Both the position numbers and the translations under genes were made by a program. A DNA stretch of 64,000 nucleotides from Bdellovibrio sp. BCCA. Lineage in GTDB: Bacteria > Bdellovibrionota > Bdellovibrionia > Bdellovibrionales > Bdellovibrionaceae. The stretch's first letter is position 1, and each line of letters starts with the position of its first letter. This document shows positions 30,059 through 32,732 of the stretch, piece by piece. The stretch lies in contig NZ_JBBNAC010000001.1 of NCBI RefSeq assembly GCF_037996825.1, positions 1,736,001 to 1,800,000 of the forward strand, given 5' to 3'. The notes below the pieces were generated by a model, which searched no databases, had not been told where the DNA came from, and saw only the letters and a list, made by a program, of their open reading frames with translations.

Positions 30059-30985
30059 ATGAAGTGTTTAGTTAAAAAGATATCGATTTTCACCGTCGTA
30101 TCTTTGGTCGCGGCCTGCAGTCAAAACGGTTCGCAGACGGCAGCTACGACGATGTCAAGCTTGGGCTCGGTAGATACTCAACGGGAAGCTGCCGTGAGTT
30201 TCAAGCTAACGGATGCTCCGAATAAAGAGCTTAAATCCGTGTTCGTTAATATCGACCATATGGAGGTCGTGGTTGCGGGGCGTGGAAAAGCAGGTCGTGT
30301 GATCTTGGCTCAAGATCTGGGACTCGTGGATCTACTCACTCTGCAAAATGGAGTCACCTTGCCATTGCAAGATGTGATTGCTCCGGATGGTCTGCAAATT
30401 CAGCAGATCCGTCTTGTGCTGAAAGGGGATGGTCACTATGCGGTGAAGAGTGACGATTCTATCTGTGAGTTAAAAACTCCAAGCGCACAAAAAACGGGTG
30501 TTAAAATTATTCTGACTAATAAATTCGAATTCGAAGCGGGTCATCAATATGACATCGTGGTCGACTTCGATGCTTTAAAATCTGTGGTTATTCAAGGCAA
30601 TGGTGGATGTCTTTTAAAACCAGTTTTGAAGTTAAAGTCAGCGTATAAAAAACCAATCGTTGTTCCTGAAGATCCAGGATCGGAAGAGCCAGGCTCTGGT
30701 TCTGAGCAGCCCGGTAGCGGATCGGAAAGTGGCGGCAGTGATGTCGTGACTAATCCTGATTCAGGTTCTGAGACAGGTTCAGAAACTGGTTCTGAAAGCG
30801 GGGGCAGTGACGTTGTTATTAATCCAGATTCAGGCAGCGAAACCGGTGGTATCGATTCGAGCGGTGGCACTGAGCTTGTAACGACTCCAGAGCAAAACGA
30901 TCCTTCCAATGATGGTTATGCTGAGGAAGATCCTATTGTCGATACAATGCCTGTGTTAACTCCAGAACAAATGCGTAATATGTAA
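30059..30985 (+). CDS. DUF4382-type lipoprotein with Ser/Gly/Glu-rich repeat tail
   Basis: A 308-residue lipoprotein; signal MKCLVKKISIFTVVSLVAAC with lipobox VAAC (Cys20). Residues 45-195 match the DUF4382 type: FKLTDAPNKELKSVFVNIDH, VDLLTLQNGVTLPL, QIQQIRLVLKGDG and YDIVVDFDALKSVV. The C-terminal 100 residues are low-complexity and acidic, built of PGSEEPGSGSEQ and two copies of a block ESGGSDVV-NPDSGSETG. The tail is probably an extended surface linker. The start has GGAGG 6 bases upstream. It follows two hairpins after icmF and ends with a strong terminator. Function unknown. Confidence 0.8.
   Translation: MKCLVKKISIFTVVSLVAACSQNGSQTAATTMSSLGSVDTQREAAVSFKLTDAPNKELKSVFVNIDHMEVVVAGRGKAGRVILAQDLGLVDLLTLQNGVTLPLQDVIAPDGLQIQQIRLVLKGDGHYAVKSDDSICELKTPSAQKTGVKIILTNKFEFEAGHQYDIVVDFDALKSVVIQGNGGCLLKPVLKLKSAYKKPIVVPEDPGSEEPGSGSEQPGSGSESGGSDVVTNPDSGSETGSETGSESGGSDVVINPDSGSETGGIDSSGGTELVTTPEQNDPSNDGYAEEDPIVDTMPVLTPEQMRNM
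30728..30843 (+). repeat. In-gene repeat coding for the acidic Ser/Gly tail
   Basis: Two copies of a block of about 50 bases, starting near 30728 and 30794, code for ESGGSDVV followed by T/I-NPDSGSETG. They are diverged in third positions, so the repeat is not recent; further GSE/GSET units lie around them. Confidence 0.75.
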
Positions 30986-31000
30986 TTTAAAAATAAAAAA

Positions 31001-31035
31001 AGCCGGTTCCTCACGGAGCCGGCTTTTTCTTTTTG
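31001..31035. terminator. Bidirectional terminator
   Basis: Ten-bp stem AGCCGGTTCC (31001-31010) / GGAGCCGGCT (31015-31024) with one G-T pair and a 4-base loop, A-run before and TTTTTCTTTTT after. It lies between the convergent lipoprotein and repeat-protein genes and can serve both. Confidence 0.92.
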
Positions 31036-31048
31036 AGAGTTCCAAAAA

Positions 31049-32665
31049 TTAGAATGTCTTGCTCACGATAAATTGCACTTTTTGAGAGCCCAAGTATTGA
31101 GCGCTTGTGCGATTGACAACAAGGTCGATATAAATTTTAGTACCCACTGCTGGATTTACACCCACAGCTTTAAAGGCGATCGCAAGTTCGTCGCCTGCAC
31201 GTGTGATGTCTTCACGAGCAAAAGCTTTTTCACCCAACCATTCGATCTTGCCGTTAGAAAGTTTTTTCCAGATAACAGCTTTATAAGTCGATTTGATTTC
31301 TTCAGCCGCTGGAGTTTGATCGCGGAACACAAGAACGCTTTCAGCACCGTGTCCTTCGATCTCCATCAACTGAACTTGATCTTTGTTCTTAAGATTTTGG
31401 ATCTCGTCTTGATCCAATTCTTTCTTCTCGTAAGAAGCCGTCTGATCGAAAGTCAAAGCTCCATTAGTTACATTCACACCGTGACGTTCAACGTGAAGCA
31501 AGATGCTGTATTTTCCTTCGCGAGCCAATTCAGGCGCTGCGACTTCAAAGACTTTCGCTTCCGTGCCCTCAAGACGTTGTTGCAAGATCACAGCCTGGCT
31601 TTGTTGATCGCGGATTTCCAAAGTATACACGGAAACCAAACGAGCCGATGCCACAGTTTCTTTAAAGACGACTTTACCTTGGCCTTTATTGAAGCTTAAT
31701 TTCAAACCTTGAACTGTCGCAGTTCCAGCGTTTTGCTCTGTCCACTTAGGAACAAGCTTAAGAACAAAAACTTTCTCACGTCCGTCCATACGAACTTGAT
31801 CAATCGCATAGCCGAAAATATCCGAACGAACAGAGATATTCACATCCGGTTTGCTTTCGCTTCCACGCAATGTCACTTGGATTTTTTCAACTTCACCTGC
31901 AAGCAACACGGCTTCCGCCGGGAAGATCACAGCAACAGGTTGAGTGAATTGGTGATCAAAGACGTCACGGTACTTAGTTACGCAGCAACGAGTTTCTTCA
32001 CGATATTTAGTTACGGTACGAGTGCGCGCCTCTTGGCGATACTTCGTTACAGTGCGAGTGCGAAGCTCTTGTCTGTAGCGAACTTCATCACGGTATTTAG
32101 TCACCGTGCGAGTTTTACGAACTTGTTCATATCCGCATTCGCGGTCTGTGTAAGGAACTTGGCGACATTGAGGAACATCACGGCAGTCGCGAGGTCCTTC
32201 ATCACGGCACTCATTGCGAGTTTTGCAAATACGTTCGCCGTGAGCATTTGTTCCGCACTCCGTGATAGGTTGGCAAACGCGGCCACCCGGAGCACACACG
32301 CGCTCATTGTGACACTCTTGACGGTACTTCGTTACGTTACGGCAAACGTAATCGTTGTCCCAGTAAACTTCAGTGTCTGTGTATGCAACACGTTCTGTAT
32401 AAGGAACGTTTTCGTAGTAAGTCTCTGTCGTTTGATAAGGAACGTCGACATAGTACGTTTCTTCGACTTGATACGGAACTTGCTCCGTATATTCTGCTTG
32501 ATAAGGTTCTTGTCTGTAGACATTCAGAGACATCTCTGTGCGGACAGTGTTTCCGTTCGAAAGTTCTCTAGTAATAATATCTTGAGTCTTCTCTTGCGGA
32601 GCGGCGAATGAGCTCACTCCCAAAAGAAGAGTCAAAATGGCTCCGAAAAGTGGTTTTGCGTGCAT
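31049..32665 (-). CDS. Exported protein with VPY and VTKYR repeats and a Cys-rich middle
   Basis: A 538-residue protein with signal peptide MHAKPLFGAILTLLLGVSSFA. Residues 45-110 repeat a tyrosine-rich unit: YTEQVPYQVEETYY, VDVPYQTTETYY, ENVPYTERVAYTD. Residues 108-230 carry 12 Cys and many Arg with five copies of VTKYR (N/TVTKYRQE, RTVTKYRDE, RTVTKYRQE, RTVTKYREE, CVTKYRD). The last 300 residues look like beta-sandwich domains (VAVIFPAEAVLLAGEVEKIQ, ALTFDQTASYEKKE). The ribosome site is GGAGGAAAC-ATG. I know similar VPY/TVTKYR-like repeats only loosely from planctomycete proteins. No function is assigned. Confidence 0.85.
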   Translation of the reverse strand: MHAKPLFGAILTLLLGVSSFAAPQEKTQDIITRELSNGNTVRTEMSLNVYRQEPYQAEYTEQVPYQVEETYYVDVPYQTTETYYENVPYTERVAYTDTEVYWDNDYVCRNVTKYRQECHNERVCAPGGRVCQPITECGTNAHGERICKTRNECRDEGPRDCRDVPQCRQVPYTDRECGYEQVRKTRTVTKYRDEVRYRQELRTRTVTKYRQEARTRTVTKYREETRCCVTKYRDVFDHQFTQPVAVIFPAEAVLLAGEVEKIQVTLRGSESKPDVNISVRSDIFGYAIDQVRMDGREKVFVLKLVPKWTEQNAGTATVQGLKLSFNKGQGKVVFKETVASARLVSVYTLEIRDQQSQAVILQQRLEGTEAKVFEVAAPELAREGKYSILLHVERHGVNVTNGALTFDQTASYEKKELDQDEIQNLKNKDQVQLMEIEGHGAESVLVFRDQTPAAEEIKSTYKAVIWKKLSNGKIEWLGEKAFAREDITRAGDELAIAFKAVGVNPAVGTKIYIDLVVNRTSAQYLGSQKVQFIVSKTF

Positions 32666-32732
32666 GTTTCCTCCTCCAATTTATGACGGAAGAAGATTTT
32701 GCAAAGGCTGCGCCAAAAAATGTCGGTGGAGA

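Follow-up and report, generated by a model that had tools for sequence, protein, structure and literature searches.

The ORF at 31049-32665, on the minus strand of the 64,000-nucleotide stretch of DNA that was analysed (the window), encodes a protein of 538 aa (P0001) whose N-terminal half very probably forms one giant antiparallel β-hairpin, rising from an Ig-like domain, closed at its far end by a ladder of cysteines and presumably serving as a rigid exported stalk. Each strand of this hairpin appears to be about 92 residues, or about 30 nm, long. The hairpin topology is well supported by the mirror symmetry of the cysteines, the residue register between the arms, the coupled lengths of the arms and the predicted structure. 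The original prediction had described two kinds of repeat, and these same four lines of evidence lead us to read them not as independent regions but as the two strands of a single hairpin.

A VPY arm leads into a Cys-rich middle, which is followed by a VTKYR arm and a β-sandwich C-terminus; both kinds of repeat have a 12-residue period. The ATG at 32663-32665 is preceded by a ribosome-binding site (GGAGGAGG, 32670..32677), and a signal peptide was recognised by eye in residues 1-21 (MHAKPLFGAILTLLLGVSSFA, 32603..32665). These elements, the five VTKYR motifs and the 12 cysteines are present as originally described, [VE]PY also occurs five times, and the idea of an exported protein with Tyr-, Arg- and Cys-rich repeats and a structural rather than enzymatic look is upheld. 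On the same strand, residues 22-49 (32519..32602) would provide the N-terminal strands of the Ig-like base domain, since AlphaFold2 places strands at 28-33 and from 40 onwards with pLDDT 85-91. They are followed by the outgoing stalk strand with VPYQxxETYYxx repeats (residues 50-107, 32345..32518), the hairpin tip with ten cysteines in mirror order (residues 108-177, 32135..32344), the returning stalk strand with RTVTKYRxExRT repeats (residues 178-235, 31961..32134), and the remaining base domain together with the FnIII/Ig-like C-terminal domains (residues 236-538, 31052..31960). The repeat and cysteine pattern is far beyond chance.

The gene is present as a single copy in the genome and stands alone, with an FAD oxidoreductase gene on one side and a convergent DUF4382 gene on the other; a terminator-like hairpin lies between the latter and the studied gene (30997..31028). 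The gene is real, since about 31 homologues have an uninterrupted reading frame and orthologues with 61-74% identity have retained the gene order beside the same FAD oxidoreductase gene. The 74% identical orthologue is found on the minus strand at 1783617-1785227 of a genome of the same genus (G006). We found no conserved operon, as synteny is confined to the close orthologues and the divergent homologues are flanked by unrelated genes, and a scan for sigma-70 promoters gave a number of sites not above that of shuffled sequences. The DUF4382 gene (30059-30985, plus strand) has a Gly-Ser-Glu rich repeat tail (GSESGGSDVVTNPDSGSETG).

Ten of the 12 cysteines, at residues 108, 118, 124, 131, 137, 147, 153, 161, 167 and 177, are separated by gaps of 10-6-7-6-10-6-8-6-10, a palindrome save for one residue. 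The positions of mirrored cysteines add up to 285 in the outer three pairs and 284 in the inner two, and the predicted rungs are 108-177, 118-167, 124-161, 131-153 and 137-147. Homologues lose the ladder cysteines as mirrored pairs from the inside outward, going from 12 to 8 to 4 cysteines in all; those with 8 carry a Gly/Pro linker in place of the tip, and the one with 4 is L029. Together, the palindromic gaps and the paired losses pointed to a hairpin whose rungs run from strand to strand, the stalk being built of the VPY arm as one strand and the VTKYR arm as the other. The other two cysteines, Cys227-Cys228 (31982..31987, minus strand), form a nearly invariant vicinal pair at the base of the hairpin, and no cysteine faces them in its register. 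These two could bond to each other, as vicinal cysteines, or link separate molecules.

Ladders were extracted from the relatives by a fixed rule in which leading and trailing gaps of more than 13 were trimmed, the CC pair was excluded, and 12 truncated or clearly different loci were left out. The number of cysteines was even in all 46 distinct patterns, ranging from 2 to 100, and nearly all of the patterns were palindromic within a few residues; because they are related by descent, their separate p values are not to be multiplied. The most extreme member seen, L140 (G198:C72:84500-89500), has 100 ladder cysteines in mirror order within a reading frame of 1345 aa, followed by β-rich C-terminal repeats. 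Each of its gaps correlates with the mirror gap (r=0.83) and none of 5000 shuffles was as symmetric (p 0.0002). At 0.33 nm per residue, its arms of about 445 residues would span about 150 nm in extended form. L089, which has no mirror symmetry, and the distant relatives L065 and L072-L074, which have no proper ladder, are exceptions. In L073 and L074 (genomes G291 and G290) and in L089 (G301), His-rich segments (HTHPHYGDHHSGHD, HSHTHGCMHHEYPH) precede or replace the regular cysteine ladder. Long low-complexity loops (RPDRPD, PAPAPRPTP, HRPPGGGG and RDRDERERRD) replace the tip between intact ladder halves in L014, L028, L025 and L067.

The lengths of the two arms were measured in 31 homologues, from the position of the conserved Tyr50 to the first ladder cysteine and from the last ladder cysteine to the CC pair; the anchors of L010, L030 and L062 were placed by hand after the automatic rule had missed them. 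Only the combinations 34/26, 46/38, 58/50 and 70/62 (N-arm/C-arm) occurred, apart from a single case of 59/50. The N-arm exceeds the C-arm by 8 residues in 30 of the 31 homologues and by 9 in the other (r = 0.9999), and this constant difference means that changes in the two arms go together. In a phylogeny based only on the C-terminal region, several branches of which are weakly supported, each arm has undergone at least 11 length changes, the count being equal for both, and all of these are of 12 residues or multiples of 12, bar one residue in the 59/50 case. Even, mirror-ordered cysteines between two arms, and arm lengths locked together, are thus what we find in the group that we define here as the Bdellovibrionota cystine-ladder family. 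Such cysteines and coupled arms carry strong evidence on topology, so that sequence alone suffices to deduce the fold.

When the register is set by the outermost cysteines only, 91 of 100 prolines of the VPY arms face an aromatic residue across the ribbon, on the VTKYR arm. Shifting the register by up to 11 residues lowers this share to 34% or less, and a shift of 12, which is one repeat, gives 55%. Facing pairs in P0001 include P64-Y221, P76-Y209, P88-Y197, Y65-K220, Y77-K208, E69-R216 and E81-R204, and the ribbon would have one face of Tyr, Val, Glu, Arg and Lys and another of Pro, Thr, Gln and Tyr. Within the ladder, oppositely charged residues lie across from each other more frequently on the right rung (9.7%) than on wrong rungs (6.8%). 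Plain opposite-charge pairing is not maximal at the exact register and peaks at diagonal offsets of -2 and +4, and for this reason we regard it as weaker evidence.

The hairpin hypothesis had been recorded ahead of the AlphaFold2 model, a monomer predicted from an alignment of four sequences only. The model has strands at residues 40-125, 129-139, 145-155 and 160-247, and paired positions sum to about 285-287 in the stalk and 284 at the tip, in agreement with the cysteine sums of 285 and 284. Its mean pLDDT is 75, with about 70 in the stalk and 55-65 at the tip, and its pTM is 0.42. In a separate model of the hairpin of a distant homologue (L033), the ladder is again a hairpin, with pLDDT up to 92 and a positional sum of 266 that equals the cysteine sum of that protein; the arms of its stalk were not resolved (pLDDT about 30-40). 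Residues 22-50 and 236-310 of P0001, which flank the hairpin, were modelled with confidence, which suggests that the hairpin is a greatly extended loop within an Ig-like domain. Further along, residues 308-538 align with FnIII/Ig chains of the PDB in Foldseek (Z about 9-10, many tied rows). Their fold may resemble FnIII/Ig pairs, in keeping with the β-sandwich expected from the sequence, whereas P0001 has no significant sequence match in Pfam or NCBIfam.

Other readings of the same protein were considered. The one closest to the original prediction takes the Tyr-rich and Arg-rich repeats as unrelated regions which, with the Cys segment, bind metal or cross-link molecules into an adhesive surface layer. 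Export and the Tyr-, Arg- and Cys-rich composition agree with this, and the partnerless Cys227-Cys228 could join molecules, but the mirror order and even number of the cysteines, their loss in mirrored pairs, the locked arm lengths and the Pro-aromatic register are all left unexplained, making it improbable. Even, mirror-ordered cysteines are better fitted by disulfide rungs than by metal ligands, and of the cross-linking once proposed only the intramolecular kind, as probable disulfides, is retained. We think it still more improbable that the hairpin is a stem that inserts into membranes, as in pore-forming toxins with their long hairpins. The highest rows in Foldseek searches of the PDB and viral libraries did come from proteins whose pore stems are long; however, these matches had TM-scores of about 0.13 and rmsd near 40 Å and are therefore not meaningful, and they were discarded, the C-terminal part giving the FnIII/Ig-like matches. 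Moreover, charged residues run all along the ribbon and leave no apolar side to face lipid.

The remaining two readings accept the hairpin and differ in its use. Several hairpins might lie side by side as a fibre or multi-stranded sheet, the monomeric hairpin being only the building block of a filament. A lone ribbon would leave both of its faces exposed and the CC pair at its base is unpaired, and these points speak for assembly; against it, there is neither a partner gene nor a conserved neighbourhood, and we hold this somewhat unlikely. Instead of a spike on the surface, the hairpin could also be a spacer or tether in the periplasm that connects the two membranes. Its length of about 30 nm would be comparable to the depth of a cell envelope, and a surface-sorting signal or lipid anchor was not seen. 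On the other hand, half-lengths estimated within the order lie between about 22 and 44 nm, and L140 would reach about 150 nm; such variation does not suit a single fixed gap, so that a spacer seems unlikely.

We favour a rigid exported stalk which stands on Ig/FnIII-like domains and holds its tip off the cell as the most likely role of P0001. The protein would leave the cytoplasm by the Sec route, and its ladder cysteines would be oxidised outside by DsbA-type proteins, including a VKOR-DsbA fusion. The VPY arm would then run outward and the VTKYR arm return along it, zipped together every 12 residues by Pro facing Tyr, Tyr facing Lys or Arg, and Glu lying close to Arg, and disulfides nested as a ladder between the strands would secure the far end. 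The resulting ribbon of about 30 nm, presumably stiff, would rise from the FnIII/Ig-like base domains and show at a set distance from the envelope a tip which is Cys-rich in P0001 and a Gly/Pro- or Arg/Asp-rich loop in some relatives. Variation in the tips, and in stalk length by whole repeats, is in keeping with a stalk presenting a tip. Disulfide formation outside the cytoplasm is plausible because the genome encodes DsbA-like proteins and because VKOR and DsbA matches occur in one open frame of 411 residues (G000:C1:1992633-1993781; L160, L164), outside the window, whose product is a likely oxidant of exported thiols; DsbB and DsbC_N gave no match in the genome. As neither an anchor nor a surface-sorting signal was seen in P0001, surface display is a guess, and contact with other cells may be where the stalk acts. 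Adhesion, spacing, armour and fibre building are all possible roles.

P0001 belongs to no family in Pfam (hmmscan, E<=10) or NCBIfam and has no sequence match in the PDB. A Pfam scan of 25 homologues returned scattered weak matches only, and six homologues matched NCBIfam EntB (best E 1.2e-6), which we took as low-complexity similarity. At the family level, relatives were found in 34 of 66 genomes, at the genus level in 17 of 24, and across the phylum in 63 of 369 with a first profile and 132 of 369 with a second, so that the superfamily extends over much of the Bdellovibrionota; viral contigs and plasmids contained none. The expectation that absence from related predators would count against the original prediction is borne out in part, the gene being missing from seven genomes of the genus (G010, G011, G012, G013, G015, G021 and G022), several of them single-contig. 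It is therefore not a universal predation factor, and this absence argues against an indispensable role in predation.

No family with cysteines in mirror order, or with so long a hairpin, was met among those described; relatives were sought in Bdellovibrionota, plasmids and viral contigs. What is new seems to be the recognition of the architecture and of the family, since uncharacterised entries are surely present in UniProt and the AlphaFold database. Perhaps, and we put this forward tentatively, the Bdellovibrionota possess an unrecognised class of exported giant β-ribbons with disulfide rungs, roughly 13 to 150 nm long, which evolve in length through simultaneous gain of one and the same repeat unit in both strands and which serve these mostly predatory bacteria as rigid spikes or rulers. 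If so, one polypeptide would make a ribbon of tens to more than 100 nanometres whose two halves are zipped by disulfide rungs, P0001 would offer Bdellovibrio genetics an accessible candidate for a surface structure, and ladder hairpins could be a model from nature for designing rigid protein rods of a desired length.

Short Tyr/Val/Pro-rich repeats are also found in planctomycete repeat proteins of the Pfam family YTV (PF07639). The loose link to planctomycetes made in the original prediction was dropped, and with it a YTV identity, as P0001 matches neither YTV nor any other Pfam family at E up to 10; a genome search with YTV gave no match, and control genomes likewise gave none. The Mosaic adhesive trimer (MAT) fibres of B. 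bacteriovorus (PMC10769870) are, like P0001, exported, elongated, β-rich and from the same kind of predator. However, they are intertwined trimeric β-prisms, some with an S74 protease domain, whereas P0001 is a predicted intramolecular hairpin with no Pfam or NCBIfam match to an S74 peptidase or other fibre-tip domain. Stacked parallel disulfides linking two strands, as predicted in P0001 from the fit of cysteine positions and hairpin register, are known from the cystine ladder of theta-defensins and the ladder-like motif of algal HAP2 (PMC6327110). These have three disulfides, in a cyclic peptide of 18 residues or a loop of 37, whereas P0001 is a linear exported protein of 538 aa with 5 putative rungs, up to 50 in relatives. 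Bovine antibodies with ultralong CDR H3 (PMC5994613) likewise have a two-stranded β-ribbon stalk that rises from an Ig-fold domain to a disulfide-rich knob, with variable stalk length and cysteine number. Their CDR H3 has 40-70 residues, versus about 185 in the P0001 hairpin and about 890 in L140, and lacks 12-residue repeats and a mirror-ordered ladder; we claim no homology, and by analogy these antibodies may illustrate on a small scale the principle of a stalk that presents a tip.
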